Positions 1,970 to 22,605 of a stretch of 33,432 nt of DNA are shown piece by piece (within the stretch, counting starts at the first letter, position 1; each line of letters opens with the position of its first letter). Source of the stretch: Planctomycetota bacterium. Lineage in GTDB: Bacteria; Planctomycetota; Phycisphaerae; SM23-33. The notes below the pieces were generated by a model. That model worked only from the letters and a program-made list of their open reading frames with translations, was not told the DNA's origin and searched no databases. The DNA lies in the NCBI GenBank assembly GCA_024275995.1, contig JAJRYB010000111.1:1-33432 (forward strand), given 5' to 3'. The position numbers were made by a program, and so were the translations under genes.

Positions 1970-4900
1970 CTACCACGGTGTTTCCGTGGAATCAATCTTT
2001 TTTGCGGACGTTTTCGGATAATAGGTGGTTTGTAATACATCGATGACGCGAGAGCGGATGCCGTTCCAATATTCAGGGGTAGTCTTCCAGGAATCGCCTG
2101 CCATATCTGCCGACGACGGGTCGCGCCAGATATTTACGATTTCCTTTTTCTTCGTTTTGGTTTTTTTTGTCCCGGAATCACTCGGCGGATCGCAAAGGGA
2201 TGTGCCACTGTCGATGCACACGGCTCCTTTGACCTTGTCGGGAAGCGGTTTTCCGTTTTCGGTATTGCAGGGTACATACCACCACCTGCCTGGCCAGTCC
2301 GGGTCCAGCAACGCCTTGAGACCGATGTTGGCGGCCGCGTTGAGGTCGGCCTGAAGCCCCTTGGCGGCGGGAGAATTCGGGGCGGCTGAGACAAATAGTT
2401 CTCCGCCGCGCACCGGGATACGTAACGGCGGGGCGGTTTCTTGTTCGATTTCGCTTGCAGCGGACCATTTAGTATCGAGATCGACAAGGTACCGCTCGCG
2501 GGCGTCCCCTTTGCCGTGCTTGACTTTCTCTTTAGCGGTGTTGATTTGTTTTCGCCACCACGGAGCGGCTAGGAAATCGGCCAGGGGTACATCGCAGCAG
2601 CGGATGCCCGGCGCGCCGGTGCGGGAATCCTGGCGTGAGGTGTAGCCAGCCTGGACCTCGCGGAGATGCAGGCCATGGAGTTGACATGCCTCGGAAAGGT
2701 ACTTCTTGACCTTGCTGGAGGACCACGTCATGAGCTGACGGTTCTCGCGACGGGTGCGAGTTTCCTCGGGGCGATAATTGGTTAAGTTCTCGATAATGAC
2801 GGCATGGCAGGGCTCGTCCACTCGTTCGCGCGGGCGGCGGCGACCCCGCTTGCCTTTGTCAAGCTTCATGCGTCCGACGCCCAAGGCAGCCTCGGCGATT
2901 CGACTGGCGAGTTGTTTGACCCGTTGCTCGCGCAATCGTTCCATCATGTCGAGGACGCTTCGTCCAAAATCGCGAAGGGCATCATCACCCTTGGCCGGGA
3001 CGTTTTTGCGTGGGTCATCCGGCTCAGGCCGCATGTAGAAGGCTTTTTGGACTTGGTACAGAGATTTTATAGTAGCGATGCGTGTGAGCGACAGCCCGCC
3101 GACGTGACGGATAGCACGGTCGGCCTTGGCCTTTTTGCTACGAGGGAGAATCCAATCCCGGAGCCAGCGTAGATGCTTTCGTAATGCGGAATCATCTTTG
3201 CGCCACCGCGTTGCCCACAGACAGTGGAGTTTCCGGCAGAGGGAGTCGTTCTTGGCAAGGCTTTCGGCAACTGGTTTGAGTTTCTCGGTCAGGTCGGCCC
3301 GATGTTTCTTGCGGGATTTCGGCGTAGCGGCAGCATCTGCCGGGGCTTGAGGCAAGGCCGCGCCTTGCAATAAAGGTGCAATGTGCGCCTCCCACTGCTG
3401 CTTGGCCCATGCATCGGTCCACCCTTTGCCTGCGAAAAGGGCATGCCCGTCGGCCAGCGTATCGGCTAGGAGTTCGATACGCCCCTCATCTGTCAGGTTT
3501 TCTTCTCGTCCACCGGGCAAGAGCTTCCTGGTAGTTGTCAGGTTGAAGGCAATGCGGGCGCGGCGTCCGTGGCGCTTGAGCCCAAGCTGAATGGTGCGGA
3601 CGGCGGAGGACATCATCTCGTCCACGGAAAGCAAAGGCTTACGGGCTTCGCCATCGGATGCCTCACCACCGCCTGCCGGTGTCCATCCCAGACGGCGTAG
3701 TGCCTCCAATCGTGCCTTCTGCTTGCCAGCCTTGCCCCAGCCAGCCTTGACCAGCCGGTCGATAAGCGGCACGGCGCGCCCGACTTCGGCCTCCATTTGA
3801 TGCACCGCCCAGAGCTCTTCGTTTGACACCTCACGAGTTTCCTCGTCCTCTCCCTGGAGTTTGATGAGGAACTGGCGGTCGAGACGTGCCCAAGGAGCGA
3901 GGTGTTGAGCCTGCCTGACTTCACCCGTAGTCTGGTCTATGTCCTCTATCTGATCAGCACCGACGCGGCGGTAAATGGTGGTTCGTGTCTTTCCATTTGT
4001 TCCGGTTGTGACTAAATGCAGATATATGTCCGTTTCCGATGGGGAGGCGTGCTTCGCAGACTTGCACGCATCATTCATTTGCTCGATTGTCATAGTTTCC
4101 CACACGGCGCATGCGGCCGCGTAGCGATGGCCGAGGTCCACCGAAAGCACGCGCAGGCCGGGAAAGCGGGAAAGGATGAGCCGGGCATGACCTTTACGAT
4201 TCTTGTTCTCATCAGCATGAGGCCAGTACTTTGGATCTGTCTTTAGCCCAGATTTTGCTGCAAATTCACACCACGGCCCCTGAGGTTGAAGCTTGGCCGA
4301 GAAGGTCACCAGCCAGCGGAGATGGTCTCGCATCTGCTTGGCTTTGGAATCCCATCCATGTTTTTCGACCCATGCAGCAATAGCGTCCAACTGCGCCCGA
4401 GGCGCTTGGAGACGACCGCTCCAATGTGCCTGTGTGAAGATACCCGCGATGCTGATCGCACCATGTGCAGACACACCCGCTGCAGCCCGCCCCAGACGGT
4501 CTGCACGGGTGACATCCACCGGCTCCTGGCTGCGCGATTCCTGTCGCATCGCCAAGTCGTGCGTCAAGCGTTTGCATGACCATCGCAAGGTCAGTCTGTC
4601 GTTCAATTCCTGGCCATCCCACAGGCCCATTCGAAGGGCGTGTCGATCCTTCAGCCAGTCATTCTTGCCAGAAGTGTTCTTCTTGGGCTTTTTGGTTTTC
4701 GCTTTGGCGCTCTGGTGAATAGCAAAGCGAATATCCCAGCGAGAGTTTCCGAAGTCGCAGAAGACAGGATGCGATAACGGGTCGGGATGTCGATATGCAG
4801 GCACTTTGAATCGTTGTTGCTTGGCTTGGGCGTCCTTGGCGGCGACATAGTCGATGAGCGGCTGGGTGACCGCTTCACCGTTTATCTGCCAAACGCACAC

Positions 4901-6400
4901 GGCATCATCGTCGGCGAGGGCTTCAAAAAGCTGGATGTCTCCGAACTTGTCGATATCCGGGTCGGCCTGGACTTCGCGCGCAGCAATGATGCGGTCCTCG
5001 ACTGTCGTGCAATTCGTGCGACCCCACTTGGAGACAACTTGTTCCCATCCTTGTATGGCACGCCTGCGTATCCGGTAGGCGTCGAGCGCGCCACTGATCC
5101 CGGATCGCTCCTGGCAAAAGCCATCCAGCCATACTTTAGCGTTGTCTGGCACATCAGTGATCTTCTTCGTATCGACCTGGAATCTTTGGCGTTCCGCTTC
5201 GGCCCGCTTGATCCAGGAATGGCCGATAGACACACGTCTTGCGGCGTGGTCGAGCATGACAGCGAACTCGGAATGCCTTGCCGGCCCACCATTCTGAAGA
5301 TAAGTGAACTTACATACAACCTCAACTTCCTCAAGGAGCGCATCGGACCATGGACGAGGTCCTTTGCCGCCCACGTTCTTGCGGCATTTTAGGGAGTCAT
5401 CTCTAGCAGTAAGGTGAAGCTTGTCTATATCTTTCGCGGTGACTTCTAAGCTCCTCGTCTCCCACGCTTTGAGGATGTTCCGGGTAGCACTCTTGTAACC
5501 CGGCCCGCTGATAAGCTTAAGAATGCCTTTAGCATCATTTGATGTCGGTTGGAATGCCGCCAGCGACGTTGCAAGCGACGCGAGAGCTTCTGTACCCGTT
5601 GAAAAAGTCTGCGTTGTAGGTTTCCATGCCGCGATCTCATCGTAGATCCTCTGCATCTTGGCAAAATCCGCGCCCGGGCCGGTACCGAAACGGCTGATGA
5701 GCCATTGCCCTGCCTTCTGCACCAGATCCTTAGCTTTGTCCTGAACAGGGGCATCCGAATCCTCTGCAGTCTTAAGCGGCGTCAGGTAAGCCTCGGGACT
5801 GCCGAAGAAGGGGCCGAGCAGATCCCATACTTCGTCGTGCGTCAGGGAATTACCTATTCGCTGACGTGCGGCGTCGAACGCAGCGCTTCGGTTTACCCAC
5901 ACGGCGTCGTCCCTGATGGCCGCCGTCAGAGAGGATGAGCAATCTTCGACCCATGTTTGAATCTCACTCTCGCCAAGCCCGCGCCCCTTTAGAATTTTCT
6001 TGAGGGCACTAACCGTCTTCCAGTTGCTGCGTGTACCGGATTGTTTGTCCAAGTCATGCGAAACGACATATCTGTCCGGTGCCCCTTTCTCGGATTCGAC
6101 CGACAGCCAGGACAGGGCCAGCAAGATGCGGCGGTCGCGGCGTTCTTCTGCTGTCGGATCGCGGTCGGGCTGTTTCTTCCCGCCCTTCTTGGCCTGTGGG
6201 ACTTTCGCATCCGCCAGCGTGTGGCACAGTCCGCCACGCAACGTGAGCAGCCAGTCGCCGAACGCCTCGGTCCCCTTGTTTACGGCCTCGTGCGTGGCCC
6301 AGAGCGCGTCGCGCCAAGAGTGATCATTTTCGATCGGGCCGCGCAGGCGAAGCGTGTAAGCACGTTGTGTCTCCGGAAGCTTAGCAGTGGATTTGGCCAC
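1970..6400 (-). CDS. cas12b: Cas12b (C2c1) type V-B CRISPR effector, unusually long
   Basis: RNA-guided nuclease expected to cut double-stranded DNA with a single RuvC site using crRNA plus tracrRNA. RuvC-I is RVLSVDLGHRYAAACAVWE (Asp755 from the GTG start), RuvC-II is VIIENLTNYRPEET (Glu1204), and RuvC-III is LQADLNAAANIGLKALL (Asp1352). The segment after RuvC-II, with NRQLMTWSSSKVKKYL and SRQDSRTGAPGIRC, and the C-terminal IVNIWRDPSSADM closely match Alicyclobacillus Cas12b. The N-terminus (YTLRLRGPIEN then LWATHEAVNKGTEAFGDWLLTLR) also aligns with that family. An open frame extends to an ATG at 6583, but its first 61 residues have no Cas12b character. The GTG at 6400 is preceded by a GGGGGTG ribosome site and gives 1476 aa. 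Well-studied Cas12b proteins are about 1100-1130 aa; extra length lies before RuvC-I and between RuvC-I and RuvC-II. No adaptation gene is adjacent. Confidence 0.95.
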   Translation of the reverse strand: MAKSTAKLPETQRAYTLRLRGPIENDHSWRDALWATHEAVNKGTEAFGDWLLTLRGGLCHTLADAKVPQAKKGGKKQPDRDPTAEERRDRRILLALSWLSVESEKGAPDRYVVSHDLDKQSGTRSNWKTVSALKKILKGRGLGESEIQTWVEDCSSSLTAAIRDDAVWVNRSAAFDAARQRIGNSLTHDEVWDLLGPFFGSPEAYLTPLKTAEDSDAPVQDKAKDLVQKAGQWLISRFGTGPGADFAKMQRIYDEIAAWKPTTQTFSTGTEALASLATSLAAFQPTSNDAKGILKLISGPGYKSATRNILKAWETRSLEVTAKDIDKLHLTARDDSLKCRKNVGGKGPRPWSDALLEEVEVVCKFTYLQNGGPARHSEFAVMLDHAARRVSIGHSWIKRAEAERQRFQVDTKKITDVPDNAKVWLDGFCQERSGISGALDAYRIRRRAIQGWEQVVSKWGRTNCTTVEDRIIAAREVQADPDIDKFGDIQLFEALADDDAVCVWQINGEAVTQPLIDYVAAKDAQAKQQRFKVPAYRHPDPLSHPVFCDFGNSRWDIRFAIHQSAKAKTKKPKKNTSGKNDWLKDRHALRMGLWDGQELNDRLTLRWSCKRLTHDLAMRQESRSQEPVDVTRADRLGRAAAGVSAHGAISIAGIFTQAHWSGRLQAPRAQLDAIAAWVEKHGWDSKAKQMRDHLRWLVTFSAKLQPQGPWCEFAAKSGLKTDPKYWPHADENKNRKGHARLILSRFPGLRVLSVDLGHRYAAACAVWETMTIEQMNDACKSAKHASPSETDIYLHLVTTGTNGKTRTTIYRRVGADQIEDIDQTTGEVRQAQHLAPWARLDRQFLIKLQGEDEETREVSNEELWAVHQMEAEVGRAVPLIDRLVKAGWGKAGKQKARLEALRRLGWTPAGGGEASDGEARKPLLSVDEMMSSAVRTIQLGLKRHGRRARIAFNLTTTRKLLPGGREENLTDEGRIELLADTLADGHALFAGKGWTDAWAKQQWEAHIAPLLQGAALPQAPADAAATPKSRKKHRADLTEKLKPVAESLAKNDSLCRKLHCLWATRWRKDDSALRKHLRWLRDWILPRSKKAKADRAIRHVGGLSLTRIATIKSLYQVQKAFYMRPEPDDPRKNVPAKGDDALRDFGRSVLDMMERLREQRVKQLASRIAEAALGVGRMKLDKGKRGRRRPRERVDEPCHAVIIENLTNYRPEETRTRRENRQLMTWSSSKVKKYLSEACQLHGLHLREVQAGYTSRQDSRTGAPGIRCCDVPLADFLAAPWWRKQINTAKEKVKHGKGDARERYLVDLDTKWSAASEIEQETAPPLRIPVRGGELFVSAAPNSPAAKGLQADLNAAANIGLKALLDPDWPGRWWYVPCNTENGKPLPDKVKGAVCIDSGTSLCDPPSDSGTKKTKTKKKEIVNIWRDPSSADMAGDSWKTTPEYWNGIRSRVIDVLQTTYYPKTSAKKIDSTETPW
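1973..1989 (-). terminator. Hairpin at the cas12b stop codon
   Basis: CCACGG (1973-1978) and CCGTGG (1984-1989) form a perfect 6-bp stem with a 5-base loop inside the last codons of cas12b, next to its TAG stop (1972-1970). There is no U-run on the minus-strand exit side, so it is a weak candidate for a terminator. It could equally be a processing or 3'-protecting hairpin separating the mRNA from the tracrRNA just downstream. Confidence 0.35.
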
Positions 6401-6439
6401 AATACACCCCCATTCGAGGTAAAGCTGACATCCCACCAG

Positions 6440-6467
6440 ATGGTATTGAACTTGACATGGTGTTGAA
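6440..6467. repeat. Two 11-bp direct repeats upstream of cas12b
   Basis: ATGGTATTGAA (6440-6450) and ATGGTGTTGAA (6457-6467) differ at one base and are spaced 17 bp start to start. They lie 40-67 bp upstream of the preferred cas12b GTG start. Tandem sites in a promoter region are often operator half-sites. No regulator can be named. Confidence 0.4.
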
Positions 6468-6605
6468 TTATCACCGGAATGCCTTGTTGCCGCCAGAGCT
6501 TTCTTGGGCCAACAAGCCACGTACCTCCCGCATATTGCGACACGTCCCGATAATAGAAAGGCCTGTGCTTGCCTTGGCCACATCCGTTGGATAGCTTAGC
6601 TGTAC

Positions 6606-12454: not shown

Positions 12455-14212
12455 ATGGCGACAGTTTTCAGGAAGACGTACACGCAGCCACTGCCCAAGC
12501 ATGCGGAGATTGTCGAGCGGCGTGGGCGGCAGATGGTCATGTGGTTCGACCGACGCGGACGAAAGCAGTATGCCGACATGACGGTTGGGCGAAACGGCGA
12601 GAAGAAGATGCTTCGTCGCAGCCCGACATACACGGCGAAATATCGCAACGCCAGCGGCCATGTGGTGGAGGTCTCCACCGGCTGCAAGGACGAGACGGCC
12701 GCCCGCATGGTGCTGGCGAAGCTGGAGCAACGGAACGAGCACGTCAAGGCCGGTCTGTTGACGGCTGACCAGGCGGCGACACTGGACCACCAGCAGACGC
12801 CCATCGGCGACCATCTCGACGCATATCTGCAACATCTGAAGATGAAGAAACACAAGGGGCGTCGGATATGTAAGAGTCATCGCGACAACGTAGAGCGATA
12901 CCTTCGGCGGATTATCAGCGAGTGCGGGCTGGCCCGGTTGAGCGATATGACAGCCACGGCTATCGAAGCGTGGATGATGCAGCAGGAGTCGGCCGGGATG
13001 GGGGCGCGAACACTGAACGTCGCGCGGTCGGCGGCGGTGGCCTTTGCGGCCTGGTGTCGCAAGACGCGGCGGCTGGCGAGCAACCCGATGCGCGACCTGC
13101 CCCGCGCGGATGAATCATCCGATCGGCGACGAAAGCGTCGGGCGCTGACGCAGCGAGAGTTCCGCCTGCTGCTGGCGGCGACACGTCGCCGTCCCGTGTT
13201 GGAGGCGATGACTGTTCGACGTGGAAAGAACGCCGGGCAGCCCAAAGCCAATGTCCGCGAGAGCGTCAAGGTTGAACTCGGGCGGCTGGGCTGGGAGCGG
13301 GCGCTCATCTACAAGACGTTCGTGATGACCGGCCTGCGAAAGAAAGAGTTGGCGTCGATCACCATCGGCCAGGCGGTGCTGGATGGGCCGAAACCGCACT
13401 TGATGCTGCACGGGAAAGACGCGAAGAACGGCAAGGCGGCCAGTATTCCCCTGACGGCTGAATTGGCAGCCGACCTGCGGGCGTGGGTGGCGGATTGGCT
13501 GGGACGGGCCCGGCAGGCGGCCAGCGAGGCGGGGAAGTCGATTCCGTTGACACTGCCGCCCGAGGAGAAGCTCCTGAACGTGCCGACGGCACTGGTGAAG
13601 ATTCTCAACCGCGACCTGAAACTGGCTGGTATTCCCAAGGCGGATGCGCGGGGACGAACGGTTGACGTTCATTCGTTGCGGCATACGTTCTGCACGTGGA
13701 TGCAGATGGCTGGTATCGTGGGGCGCAAGACCCAGGCGGCAATGCGACATTCCAGCAGGGCGCTGACCGATGATGTGTACACGGACGAGGAATCGCTGGA
13801 AGTGGCCCAGGCGGTGGAGATGGCTATGCCGTCGCTGCCGCTGGAGAAGGCAGATGCAGACCAGACGAAGGCGGTGGCTACGGGCACGGCGGGCGTGGAA
13901 CTCGCCCCCGGCTTTGCCGTGACCAACCCGGCGCTCGCACCAGCGCTCGCACCAACCAGCGACCGGGGGAGGCATTTGGAGGCAGATTCTGGCACACGGG
14001 GCGGAGGTCGTCATCATGACGGCCGGGACGGCAATGGGAACAGGGCCAGAGACAAAGCGACGCAAGTCGCGCCTGCGCAAAGAAAAACGGACGTTCCTTC
14101 GCAAAAAGGGCGTCCGCATTCCCTTGTCCCATTGACGGGGGCACTGGGCCGTACTGGACTTGAACCAGTGACCTCCTGCGTGTCGAGCAGGCGCTCTAGC
14201 CAGCTGAGCTAA
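12455..14212 (+). CDS. Tyrosine recombinase / site-specific integrase
   Basis: Integrase of the phage type, 585 aa as read. A SAM-like N-terminal core-binding domain lies at about 115-215. The catalytic domain at about 230-450 has all expected residues: Arg295 (TGLRKKELASI), Lys near 321-327 (HGKDAKNGKA), His406 and Arg409 (VHSLRHTFCTW), His432 (AAMRHSS) and Tyr442 (DDVYTDEE). ATG 12455 has AGAAAGGA about 10 bases upstream. The tail beyond about residue 460 is low-complexity, and its last residues are simply the antisense of the tRNA-Val gene, which the frame enters. Integrase abutting the 3' side of a tRNA is the usual layout when that tRNA is the attachment site. Confidence 0.95.
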   Translation: MATVFRKTYTQPLPKHAEIVERRGRQMVMWFDRRGRKQYADMTVGRNGEKKMLRRSPTYTAKYRNASGHVVEVSTGCKDETAARMVLAKLEQRNEHVKAGLLTADQAATLDHQQTPIGDHLDAYLQHLKMKKHKGRRICKSHRDNVERYLRRIISECGLARLSDMTATAIEAWMMQQESAGMGARTLNVARSAAVAFAAWCRKTRRLASNPMRDLPRADESSDRRRKRRALTQREFRLLLAATRRRPVLEAMTVRRGKNAGQPKANVRESVKVELGRLGWERALIYKTFVMTGLRKKELASITIGQAVLDGPKPHLMLHGKDAKNGKAASIPLTAELAADLRAWVADWLGRARQAASEAGKSIPLTLPPEEKLLNVPTALVKILNRDLKLAGIPKADARGRTVDVHSLRHTFCTWMQMAGIVGRKTQAAMRHSSRALTDDVYTDEESLEVAQAVEMAMPSLPLEKADADQTKAVATGTAGVELAPGFAVTNPALAPALAPTSDRGRHLEADSGTRGGGRHHDGRDGNGNRARDKATQVAPAQRKTDVPSQKGRPHSLVPLTGALGRTGLEPVTSCVSSRRSSQLS

Positions 14213-14218
14213 CGGCCC
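14145..14218 (-). tRNA. tRNA-Val (anticodon GAC)
   Basis: A complete cloverleaf of 74 bases on the minus strand: acceptor GGGCCGT paired with ACGGCCC, D-stem GCTC/GAGC, anticodon stem CCTGC/GCAGG with loop TCGACAC, T-stem ACTGG/CCAGT with loop TTCAAGT, discriminator A. CCA is not encoded. The loop places GAC at 34-36, giving valine. Position 33 reads C and not the usual U. The gene is intact, so the element has restored its 3' end. Confidence 0.93.
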
Positions 14219-14409
14219 AAAGAACACATAACTATAGCGTCCACGAGGAGGAACGTCAACCTTCAAATCGTCGGCGAAACCGCGGCGAGAGAGCTTGCCC
14301 TGTCGGCGTTTCGGAGGATTTTCCTACCGCCGGTTGAACAGTTGAGCCGATCTCCATAGCATTGATATTCGTAACAGGTTTGCGCGACCAATATATCAGG
14401 AAGGTTACC

Positions 14410-18870: not shown

Positions 18871-20514
18871 TTACGCCAGCGCCGCGGCGATATCTTCCTG
18901 CGGAGTCGAGATCGGAGCGAGGGCGAAGTTTTCCACCAGCACGTTAAGCACCGCCGGGGAAACGAACGCCGGAAGCGACGGGCCTATCTTTATGTTCGTA
19001 ACGCCCAGGTGCAGCAGCGTCAGCAGGATAGCGCAGGCCTTCTGCTCGTACCAGCTGAGGATTATCGTCAACGGCAGATCGTTGACGCTGCAATCGAACG
19101 CGCCTGCCAAGGCGACGGCGATCTGGATCGCCGAATACGCGTCGTTGCATTGTCCGCAGTCCAGCAGGCGCGGGATCCCGTCGATATCGCCGAACGGCAG
19201 CTTATTGAAGCGGAACTTCCCGCAGGCCAGAGTAAGTATCACGCAATCGTCGGGGACCTGCTCAGCCAGCTCGGTGTAATAGTTGCGTCCGGGTTTTGCG
19301 CCGTCACACCCTCCAATCAGGAAAAAGTGGCGCACTTTGCCTGCCTTGACGGCCTCGATGACCTTATCGGCGACGTTCATGACGGCGTTGTGCGCGAAAC
19401 CGATGGTGATGAACTGCTCCGGCACATCTTCGGTAAACCCATCGGCCGCCAGCGCCGCGTCGATTGCTGGTGAAAAATCGCCGTCGGCGATATGCGTAAC
19501 GTCCGGAAAGGCTACCAGTCCGGACGTGAAAATCCGGCCCTTGTAACTCTCGCGAGGTTTCTGGATGCAATTGGTGGTCATCACGATCGCGCCGGGGAAC
19601 TCGTCGAATTCCTTCGCCTGGTCCTGCCACGCGCCACCATAGTTGCCAACCAGATGGGCGTACTTTTTCAGGCCCGGATAGGCCAGGCACGGAAGCATCT
19701 CCCCGTGCGTGTAAACGTTGACGCCCTTCCCTTCGGTCTGCTGGAGGATCGCATCGAGGTCCTTCAGGTCGTGGCCGGATACCAGCAGGCACTTGCCCCT
19801 GATGGGCGTAACGCGGACCTGCGTCGGCTCGGGGTGTCCGTAGGCACCGGTGTTGGCCTTATCGAGCAGCTCCATAACCTTCAGGTTCAACTCGCCGACG
19901 GCAAGGGCTTTCGCCGTCAGTTCGGCCAGGTCCGTGGGGTTCTCAGCCAGGAACGAGAGCATCCCCTCAAAACCGGCATAGATATCGTCGTCCTCGACGC
20001 CAAGAACATGAGCGTGATCGGCGTAGGCGGCCGAACCCTTCAGCCCGTACAGGATCAACTCCCGGAGGCTGACGACGTCCGGCCCGTCCACGGCGATGCG
20101 CTTGTCGATTCGCAGCGCCTCGGCCATCGCGAGAATGCCCTCGCGCGCGTCGGGAAGATCGCAGGGATCGCAGAGGAACTCCGGCTCCTTGCCCGCCTTG
20201 GCGCACGCCTCGGCGTATTGGTCTTTAAGGCGCAGGCCCAACTGCTTCGCCCTGGCGATGGTCTGCTCCAGGCGATCCGGGTCGAAATCGACGTTCGTCA
20301 CCGTTGCGAACAGCGCTTCGATAATGAACACGTCAACTTCGCGATCGGTAATTCCAAGCTCCCGCAGGCGATGGGCATAGCGCGACAGGCCCTTTGCCGC
20401 CTGGACAAGCACGTCCTGAAGCGCCGCGACCTGAGCGTCTTTGCCGCAAACGCCCTTCACGGTGCAACCTTCGCCCTTGGCGGTCTGCTCGCATTGATAG
20501 CAAAACATTGTCAT
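18871..20514 (-). CDS. hcp: Hybrid cluster protein (hydroxylamine / NO reductase)
   Basis: 547 aa, the family's usual length. Hcp holds a cubane and a hybrid Fe-S-O cluster and acts on NO or hydroxylamine in anaerobes. The N-terminal cysteines Cys5, Cys8, Cys17 and Cys23 (CYQCEQTAKGEGCTVKGVC) have the spacing CX2CX8CX5C, as in strict anaerobes such as Desulfovibrio and unlike the longer enterobacterial spacing. Hybrid-cluster ligand regions appear as GHDLKDLDAIL, VYTHGEMLPC, TTNCIQKP, LIGGCDGAKPGR and LLDCGQCNDAYS. The ATG overlaps the upstream HD gene stop, with GGAAAGGAAA upstream; a second ATG two codons in is possible. Last gene of the Fd-HD-hcp operon. Confidence 0.97.
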   Translation of the reverse strand: MTMFCYQCEQTAKGEGCTVKGVCGKDAQVAALQDVLVQAAKGLSRYAHRLRELGITDREVDVFIIEALFATVTNVDFDPDRLEQTIARAKQLGLRLKDQYAEACAKAGKEPEFLCDPCDLPDAREGILAMAEALRIDKRIAVDGPDVVSLRELILYGLKGSAAYADHAHVLGVEDDDIYAGFEGMLSFLAENPTDLAELTAKALAVGELNLKVMELLDKANTGAYGHPEPTQVRVTPIRGKCLLVSGHDLKDLDAILQQTEGKGVNVYTHGEMLPCLAYPGLKKYAHLVGNYGGAWQDQAKEFDEFPGAIVMTTNCIQKPRESYKGRIFTSGLVAFPDVTHIADGDFSPAIDAALAADGFTEDVPEQFITIGFAHNAVMNVADKVIEAVKAGKVRHFFLIGGCDGAKPGRNYYTELAEQVPDDCVILTLACGKFRFNKLPFGDIDGIPRLLDCGQCNDAYSAIQIAVALAGAFDCSVNDLPLTIILSWYEQKACAILLTLLHLGVTNIKIGPSLPAFVSPAVLNVLVENFALAPISTPQEDIAAALA

Positions 20515-21059
20515 GTCATTTTCCTTTCCAGGTAGATTCTTTCAGCGATGCGTTTTCCCGTGCTGGTTTTGAAAACTTTTTCGATACGTTTTCGCAGCGA
20601 TTCGCTATCCGCGATACTGGCCTCGGCTGCAATGTTCACGAGCCAGTCGGCGTCCCAGATTATCCGGAACTCCGGCGTGTCGATATCTCTGTCGCTGTGA
20701 TGGTTGGCTATTATCCGGCAGACGTGCTCAATCGTCCGCTCGTCGAATCCGCGGGTGGCGAGAATCTCTCGCGCAATCGGAGGGCCTTCGATTTCCTGGT
20801 ATTTCCCCGCCGCGGAACCGTACTTCAACTCCGCCTGCGGTATTCCGATATCGTGCAGAATCGCCGCCGTGACAACAACCTTCGGCGAGGTGTTTTCGTT
20901 TTCGCCGGCGAGTATCTCCCCGGCGTAAGCGAGCACCTTCATCGCATGGTCGATGCGCCGCTGGTCTCCGCTGAAGACGCCTCGCATGGCGTCGAGCAAC
21001 CTTGCCCGCAGTTCGTCGGGCATTTCGTCGTCGGGGAGGTTTGTAATTTCGGGTTTCAT
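20511..21059 (-). CDS. HD-domain hydrolase
   Basis: 182 aa with the metal-binding residues of an HD phosphohydrolase: His38 (RRIDHAMKVL), His69-Asp70 (AAILHDIGIP), His120 (IIANHHSD) and Asp136 (IIWDADWLVN). Substrate unknown; HD proteins of this size act on nucleotides or phosphate esters. Overlaps the ferredoxin gene upstream and hcp downstream by ATGA junctions, so it is fixed in this redox operon. A role in repair or in nucleotide signalling during nitrosative stress is inference. Confidence 0.88.
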   Translation of the reverse strand: MKPEITNLPDDEMPDELRARLLDAMRGVFSGDQRRIDHAMKVLAYAGEILAGENENTSPKVVVTAAILHDIGIPQAELKYGSAAGKYQEIEGPPIAREILATRGFDERTIEHVCRIIANHHSDRDIDTPEFRIIWDADWLVNIAAEASIADSESLRKRIEKVFKTSTGKRIAERIYLERKMT

Positions 21060-21793
21060 GATTCCTGATCGTCCCGAAGCGTGCCGTCGATTCCGACCGT
21101 CACGCCGCTCAGGACGATATCATCCCTGCCGGACAGTTCCAGCGCCGCCCGGACGACATGGAGCAGCCCGGAGCAGCACGGAACGTCCATGTGGGCGACG
21201 GTTATCGATTTTACGTCGTTGTTTGCAAAGATGGCGGCAAGTTTTTCGACATAGGGCTGAACATCGTCGAGCTTCGGACAGGCGATGGCGAGCGTTTTTC
21301 CCGCGAGCAGCCGTTCGTGGAAGTCGCCCATCGCACACGCAACGCAATCCGCCGCGACGAGCATGTCAGCGTCCCGCCACATCTCGGCTCTTTCCGGAAG
21401 CAGCGCAATCTGCACGGGCCAGTGTCCGAGTCGCGACGGTTGGGCGCCGCCACTGCCGGCCGGACCGTCCGCCGTAACCTCGAGCTTCCGCATCGCCATA
21501 CCAGGACAGGTGAACCCAGCCGGCTCATCGACGATAACAGACTGCGCCTCGGACAGGTGAACTTTCACCGCCTGTTCGTCGAATTTGTCCGCCTCTCGCT
21601 GCTCGATTGTGATTGCTCCGCGCGGACACTCGCCAAGGCAGTTGCCGATCCCGTCGCAGAGATTCTCAGCCACAAGCCTCGCCTTTCCGTCGACGATGCG
21701 AATTGCGCCCTCGGCGCAGCTCGGAATGCACGCGCCGCATCCGTCGCACTTGTCCTCGTCGATTTTCACTATTTTCCGCGCTACCATGGCCAT
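21056..21793 (-). CDS. 2x[4Fe-4S] ferredoxin-type protein, partner of Hcp
   Basis: 245 aa. Two ferredoxin cluster motifs are at the N-terminus: CDGCGACIPSCAEGAI and CDGIGNCLGECPRGAI (about 17-62). The C-terminal part has further cysteines (FTCPGM, DCVACAMGDF, LAIACPKL, VPCCSGLLH) that may hold another cluster. Likely the electron donor for Hcp, in place of the Hcr reductase of enterobacteria. ATG 21793 has AGGATGG upstream; a second ATG two codons later is also usable. Confidence 0.88.
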   Translation of the reverse strand: MAMVARKIVKIDEDKCDGCGACIPSCAEGAIRIVDGKARLVAENLCDGIGNCLGECPRGAITIEQREADKFDEQAVKVHLSEAQSVIVDEPAGFTCPGMAMRKLEVTADGPAGSGGAQPSRLGHWPVQIALLPERAEMWRDADMLVAADCVACAMGDFHERLLAGKTLAIACPKLDDVQPYVEKLAAIFANNDVKSITVAHMDVPCCSGLLHVVRAALELSGRDDIVLSGVTVGIDGTLRDDQES

Positions 21794-21839
21794 GATCCAT
21801 CCTGAACGAGATTCGGGACAATTCGAACTTCCAACATTT

Positions 21840-21881
21840 GTTATAGCACCCCACCTTCCCGTAAACCTTGACTTGGGTCAA
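21840..21881 (-). promoter_or_regulatory. FNR/DNR-type operator and promoter of the Fd-HD-hcp operon
   Basis: TTGACTTGGGTCAA (21868-21881) is a perfect TTGAC-N4-GTCAA palindrome of the Crp/Fnr superfamily type. On the minus strand a TATAAC -10 box sits at 21845-21840. With a start about 7 bases further (near 21833) the palindrome centre falls at about -41.5, the classical class II activator position. The Crp/Fnr gene is immediately upstream (ends at 21916). Confidence 0.75.
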
Positions 21882-21915: not shown

Positions 21916-22605
21916 TCAGTCATCCCGGCACATTCTGCCAAGCGCGTCGAAGTCGCGGATAGTCACCTCCGTACCGCGAACGTCGATTATTCCGGCGTCT
22001 TTCAGCTTTTTAAACGCCCGACTGAGGGTTTCGGCGACGGTCCCGATCGACGCGGCCAGCTGCCTGCGGTTCTGAGCCAGGCGAAAACTGCGAAGCTTCC
22101 CGTCCTGCGATTCGCCCAGCAGCACTCCGGCAAGACGGGCCGGGACCTCCTTGAGCGAAAGGTCTTCGATGAGTCCAGCGAACTGCCTCAGCTTGGCGGA
22201 CAGGCCCGCCATCATCCCCAGAGCGATTTCAGAATTTCCGTCGATAAGTTTCAACACGACGTCGCGCCGCACGACGAGCAGCATCGTGTCCTCCACCGCC
22301 TGGGCGCCCGCGGGAAAGTACGCAGCGGAAAACATAGCCGCCTCGCCGAAAGTCTCGCCCGAACCGTAGAAGTGCAGGATCTGCTCGTCACCCTTCGCCG
22401 ACAGCTTGAAGACTTTCACGCGACCGGCGAGGATCACGAAGAACCTGTCGGCGACCTGTCCGGCACGAAGGATTGTCTCGGCGGCACGGAGCTTGCACCG
22501 CGGACAGTCAGCCAGTAGACGACGCAGGTCCGTTTCGTCGAGAGACGAAAAGACCGCCGTCCGTTGCAAAGCCGATATCGCGTCGTTTTCCGTTTCGCGC
22601 GCCAT
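21916..22605 (-). CDS. Crp/Fnr-family transcription regulator
   Basis: 229 aa. An N-terminal cyclic-nucleotide-binding-like beta-roll (about 20-130) includes ILRAGQVADRFFVILAGRVK and GSGETFGEAAMF. A long dimer helix follows, then a C-terminal helix-turn-helix with RRQLAASIGTVAETLSRAFK and KLKDAGII (about 185-212). FNR-type N-terminal iron-sulfur cysteines are not seen, so it more resembles DNR/HcpR regulators that sense NO, perhaps through haem. By position it probably activates the hcp operon through the TTGAC-N4-GTCAA site. It lies 33 bp after the cysteine desulfurase gene. Confidence 0.9.
   Translation of the reverse strand: MARETENDAISALQRTAVFSSLDETDLRRLLADCPRCKLRAAETILRAGQVADRFFVILAGRVKVFKLSAKGDEQILHFYGSGETFGEAAMFSAAYFPAGAQAVEDTMLLVVRRDVVLKLIDGNSEIALGMMAGLSAKLRQFAGLIEDLSLKEVPARLAGVLLGESQDGKLRSFRLAQNRRQLAASIGTVAETLSRAFKKLKDAGIIDVRGTEVTIRDFDALGRMCRDD

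Follow-up and report, generated by a model that had tools for sequence, protein, structure and literature searches.

The frdX-HD-hcp operon of this planctomycete-like genome is best explained as the target of HcpR-type class II activation by the regulator encoded directly upstream, likely triggered by nitric oxide (NO), a reading to which we assign a probability of roughly 0.75. The analysis covered a stretch of 33,432 nt (the window) and extended to the remainder of the genome and to related genomes. The site, its geometry, its conservation, its pairing with the regulator and the presence of a single regulator and a single hcp gene are read directly from the sequence. All genes concerned lie on the minus strand in the order regulator, 122-bp spacer, frdX, HD-domain gene and hcp. 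The regulator gene (21916..22605) encodes a 229-aa, HcpR-like protein of the Crp/Fnr type that matched the cNMP_binding and HTH_Crp_2 families above their cut-offs. The first gene of the operon (21056..21793) encodes a 245-aa ferredoxin with matches to 4Fe-4S families and was named frdX by analogy with the genes described in PMC545781. It is followed by the gene for a 182-aa HD-domain protein (20511..21059; PF01966 above cut-off) and by hcp (18871..20514), whose 547-aa product was recognized as a hybrid cluster protein by NF003658 and TIGR01703 above cut-off. The frdX-HD-hcp genes are arranged like an operon, with a 4-nt overlap at each of the frdX/HD and HD/hcp junctions. The hcp product is the sole Prismane match in the genome, and the NrfA and COX1/NorB family profiles gave no match when run against the genome, which is consistent with an anaerobic host.

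The predicted operator, the perfect palindrome TTGACCCAAGTCAA, is located at 21868..21881 (minus strand, read from 21881 to 21868) and has no other exact match in the window. On the same strand it is followed, after 22 bp, by the -10-like hexamer TATAAC (21845-21840), and both elements lie within the spacer between the regulator gene and frdX. Setting the -10 hexamer at positions -12 to -7 predicts transcription to start at 21833, which leaves a leader of about 40 nt before the frdX ATG and places the palindrome centre (21874.5) at -41.5. Inspection by eye of the -35 positions at spacings of 16-18 bp yielded GGTTTA, AGGTTT and AAGGTT, each of which matches the -35 box at only one of six positions. 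A site centred near -41.5, together with the lack of a convincing -35 box, gives the frdX promoter the geometry of a class II activator promoter relative to the predicted start. The perfect palindrome and its distance from the start predicted by TATAAC had been claimed in an earlier sequence-only reading of this DNA, and both were reproduced exactly. The palindrome was also considered as a plain -35 box and rejected, as its spacing to TATAAC is wrong. A different origin of the transcript would be read-through from the regulator gene or initiation at a sigma-70-like match inside it (22014-21986, 9/12 positions), in which case the palindrome would not act as a class II element. This promoter-like match and the lack of any terminator-like site between 21700 and 22750 make read-through or an alternative start possible. 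Such an origin is nevertheless very improbable, given that the palindrome, the 22-bp gap and the -10 hexamer make up an element that is conserved across genomes.

From base composition, the 2.64-Mb genome is expected to hold 1.35 exact palindromes and the spacer 5.6e-5. Four exact copies were found in the genome, compared with one for a reversed control pattern, so that individual copies can arise randomly. A chance match upstream of frdX is hardly credible, since the site is conserved, regularly spaced and found together with the regulator, as detailed below. The relaxed pattern TTGAYN4RTCAA occurs seven times in the genome versus two for the control, while sites with one mismatch (58 versus 46 for the control) are near background. 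Five of the six other TTGAYN4RTCAA sites are internal to open reading frames no shorter than 284 aa. The sixth (L001) falls at the end of a gene, which it overlaps, 20-33 bp ahead of the next one; judging from their translations, these two genes are presumably rimO-like and pgsA-like. At the 22-bp spacing, the -10 hexamer of the window's site matches at 5/6 positions and that of the next best site in the genome (L002) at 4/6. The search for the motif around other genes, which had been proposed as a check, thus recovered the window's site with a good -10 hexamer and gave no convincing second target. A wider regulon was rejected, as the other sites are mostly intragenic and have poorer -10 hexamers, and the switch is probably local with a single target.

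In the class, 98 of 298 genomes contain FrdX relatives (E<=1e-10). Conservation was assessed over 108 FrdX loci, namely the window, 27 unnamed and 80 named loci, with the duplicates L018, L022 and L040 dropped. Within 220 bp upstream of frdX, a perfect TTGAYN4RTCAA was present at 35/108 loci and a site with at most one mismatch at 44/108. Random windows of the same 108 loci, coding sequence included, served as a control (5400 windows) and contained such sites in 1.6% and 3.7% of cases, respectively. A perfect site was missing upstream of frdX at the other 73 loci, and in many of these hcp precedes frdX. In the window's order (38 genomes), FrdX was detected in 24 genomes (E<=1e-10) and the regulator in 16 (E<=1e-30). 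A perfect site accompanies frdX in all 14 genomes with both proteins, compared with two of the ten (G082 and G105) that have FrdX and no regulator match. Fragments of a regulator gene, spread over more than one reading frame, are present on the G105 contig, and G082 has the site and no regulator match at E<=1e-30. The FrdX-only group includes G207, with a weak FrdX match (E=5e-13) and a site at -334 that was not counted; omitting this genome changes the fraction to 2/9. Two genomes, G088 and G195, contain the regulator and yielded no FrdX match. Fisher's test for the co-occurrence of site and regulator in the order gave p=6e-5, a value that is optimistic because genomes of the same genus are not independent. 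Lack of conservation of the motif had been named beforehand as grounds for discarding the claim. The motif is conserved and the claim stands, and the proposed regulator-target pair gains support from this conservation together with the co-occurrence in 14/14 versus 2/10 genomes.

The 22-bp spacing from the site to the -10 hexamer is fixed within the order and looser outside of it. In the order, each of the 16 perfect sites has its best -10 hexamer exactly 22 bp downstream, compared with a mean of 0.7 and a maximum of 4 sites when the sequences downstream of the palindrome were shuffled. Outside the order this gap was observed for 6/19 perfect sites (shuffles: mean 0.8, maximum 4). Another 40 upstream stretches, taken from 40 genomes of the class, included 13 with a perfect site no more than 150 bp from frdX; the best -10 hexamer is located at 22 bp in three of these 13 and mostly at 14 bp in the others. 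A combined pattern of site, 22 bp and NATAAT, which excludes the window's own site with its TATAAC, was found at five places in the 298 genomes, all of them directly upstream of frdX, and its reversed control at two. The class II placement claimed for the site is supported by the -41.5 geometry and by the 22-bp gap at 16/16 sites of the order.

Additional arrangements were observed in more distant genomes. In ten of the 40 upstream stretches, which come from other families of the class (L161, L162, L171 and L177-L183), a divergent regulator with 30-36% identity adjoins frdX. A perfect site is present at all ten, with the sequence TTGATCCAGATCAA in six, and the best -10 hexamer mostly follows after 14 bp, not 22. 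Altered half-sites such as TTGATN4ATCAC and ATGATN4ATCAT occur in frdX promoters of Bacillota and Chloroflexota. A -10-like hexamer at 22 bp was noticed, without a control, next to imperfect palindromes of Bacillota (L051, L053, L054, L081 and L087) and Chloroflexota (L065 and L096).

The regulator is the genome's only HTH_Crp_2 match; a second cNMP domain is contained in an 822-aa frame elsewhere. Its only cysteines are Cys34, Cys37 and Cys226, and none is aligned with positions 20, 23, 29 and 122 of E. coli FNR, in agreement with the earlier description of an adjacent Crp/Fnr gene lacking FNR-type cysteines. Cys34 is kept in 15/15 aligned proteins of the order. The sequence GDEQI is shared with residues 85-89 of FNR, which we take to be activating region 3. 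In its extended form, GDEQILH, it contains His78, which is kept in 15/15 proteins of the order and in 16 of the 22 frdX-linked rows that cover the residue, and is absent from the DNR row of the structure-match alignment. His78 is a candidate sensing residue. In CRP numbering, the recognition helix GTVAETLSR has Ala180, Glu181 and Arg185. Identity is 38-42% to Crp/Fnr proteins of Desulfuromonadales-type frdX loci (L059, L070, L079, L097 and L104), which are encoded 0.5 to 6.8 kb from frdX. From this context and the recognition helix we infer that these proteins correspond to published HcpR1 proteins. A plasmid-encoded regulator of Acaryochloris (L195) is 40% identical; it was discarded as an HcpR control, as none of the genes annotated up to about 5 kb away is hcp. 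Identity amounts to 30% for a Crp/Fnr protein of Eleftheria, encoded two genes from a nitrite reductase gene and nirJ and presumably a DNR, to 28% for E. coli FNR and to 22.5% for CRP. Among solved structures (the best 60 of 99 matches), the best match is DNR 3dkw (E=3e-23) and none is labelled HcpR. A protein tree, built from taxa that did not include published HcpR1 references, was poorly resolved, with E. coli FNR and CRP on long branches, and did not place the regulator; its affinities are read here from the pairwise identities, which favour the frdX-linked proteins of Desulfuromonadales type.

These observations suggest the following course of events. A dimer of the regulator would occupy TTGACCCAAGTCAA. 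From this position, centred at -41.5 in a promoter with a -10 hexamer and no -35 box, it would recruit RNA polymerase in class II fashion and turn on frdX-HD-hcp from the predicted start. In FNR, activating region 3 contacts sigma-70 at class II promoters (PMC5934665). The same regulator and operator could in principle work the other way round, with a repressor that is bound without a signal and released upon damage by NO or by a ligand, as modelled for D. desulfuricans HcpR2, an NO-inactivated repressor of hcp (PMC5701242). This arrangement is considered rather unlikely, since the centre at -41.5, the lack of a -35 box and the fixed gap within the order are what class II activation needs, whereas repressors tolerate other placements. 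In addition, activation of Desulfovibrio hcp-frdX by HcpR was predicted from the site position in the 2004 study (PMC545781). For an activator, the trigger would likely be NO or another reactive nitrogen species by analogy with characterized HcpR proteins, and Hcp together with its ferredoxin would then remove NO or hydroxylamine. The cofactor may be heme, as in P. gingivalis HcpR and DNR. Activation in response to redox state, oxygen, hydroxylamine or another ligand is unlikely, though less easily set aside than repression: the strict retention of Cys34 would be compatible with a thiol-based or other sensor, but the target genes and the published physiology of HcpR (PMC12915319, PMC12750200) point to nitrosative stress, and the cysteines of FNR are missing. 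Activation by the adjacent regulator, with NO as the probable signal, thus remains the preferred reading.

The window contains further features of note. A CRISPR array (46-1634), in which a 36-nt repeat occurs 23 times, is found beside a Cas12b gene (1970-6583, minus strand; NF033949, 1110 bits). The match begins at residue 94 of the 1537-aa frame and the start codon is uncertain. A recombinase-like frame (12455-14212, plus strand; read off its translation) runs at its 3' end into a tRNA-Val gene (14144-14219, minus strand), and this overlap suggests that an element has integrated between the CRISPR locus and tRNA-Val.

With these findings, a planctomycete-like lineage joins those in which this regulon for nitrosative stress under anaerobic conditions has been predicted, and no earlier account of HcpR in planctomycetes was found in the open-licence literature searched. 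A -10 hexamer exactly 22 bp downstream was seen with TTGACN4GTCAA and TTGATN4ATCAA in Planctomycetota, with TTGATN4ATCAC in Bacillota and with ATGATN4ATCAT in Chloroflexota. A tentative broader view, to which we give somewhat less than even weight, is that several phyla share an ancient promoter design for the HcpR-type control of frdX-hcp, one that often retains the -41.5 geometry as the operator sequence diverges, and that the present locus is a minimal NO switch of one regulator and one operon in a genome where no other HTH_Crp_2 protein was found. With one regulator, one apparent target, one operator at a fixed spacing and no NrfA or COX1 matches in the genome, the locus provides a clean test case, which makes it easier to ask what proteins of the HcpR1 branch sense and how operator letters follow the recognition helix.

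HcpR was named in 2004, in a study that described sites with the consensus ATTTGACCNNGGTCAAAT preceding the hcp and frdX genes of Desulfotalea and Desulfuromonas (PMC545781). The motif wyTTGACnnnnGTCAArw was extended in 2005 to Geobacter and two cyanobacteria (PMC1274295), and TTGACnnnnGTCAA is the signal published for hcp and frdX of delta-proteobacteria and the two cyanobacteria (PMC1274295; PMC545781). The locus described here resembles this HcpR1 branch, as presented in the two studies, in having a Crp/Fnr protein without FNR cysteines and TTGACnnnnGTCAA before frdX and hcp. The regulator gene is adjacent to its target, as hcpR often is, and the protein has Glu181 but no Arg180, the combination published for TTGA-type sites (PMC1274295). 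That study links position 3 of the site to residue 180 and position 6 to residue 181, and regulators of TTGAC sites have Ser or Pro at 180; the present protein differs in having Ala. Further differences from the published branch are the host, a member of the Planctomycetota instead of the delta-proteobacteria or cyanobacteria, the HD gene inserted between frdX and hcp, and the apparently single target. The P. gingivalis and C. difficile proteins, assigned to the HcpR2 branch in PMC1274295, are likewise adjacent regulators of hcp or frdX-hcp connected to nitrosative stress, but have other recognition residues and motifs. In C. difficile, hcpR protects against NO, and the sole putative site among the affected genes precedes frdX-hcp (PMC12915319). 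The P. gingivalis protein is linked to nitrosative stress and binds heme, with Met68 reported as a heme ligand (PMC12750200). D. desulfuricans HcpR1 and HcpR2 act on nap and hcp, and their names need not match the branches of 2005 (PMC5701242). E. coli FNR shares with the present system class II sites centred at -41.5 (PMC6343905), the TTGA half-site core and the GDEQI sequence. It differs in its Fe-S cysteines, its low identity of 28% and a half-site that ends in T instead of C, and membership in the FNR group was rejected because the four cluster cysteines are missing from the regulator. Pseudomonas DNR (3dkw) has the same fold family and an NO-linked function; unlike the present regulator, it recognizes a motif resembling the FNR box, TTGATnnnnATCAA, and controls nir, nor and nos (PMC1274295). 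DNR membership was rejected as well, as the site preceding frdX-hcp is TTGACnnnnGTCAA and not TTGATnnnnATCAA-like and the genome has no NrfA or COX1/NorB match. The label "FNR/DNR-type" given in the sequence-only reading was therefore corrected, since TTGACnnnnGTCAA is the published HcpR signal and the regulator is closer to frdX-linked proteins (38-42%) than to the protein taken here as DNR (30%) or to E. coli FNR (28%). A DNR-like label is less precise rather than absurd, because the best structure match listed is DNR 3dkw. The assignment of the site as an HcpR-type signal rather than an FNR or DNR site is well supported, and the locus represents a new example of a known system.
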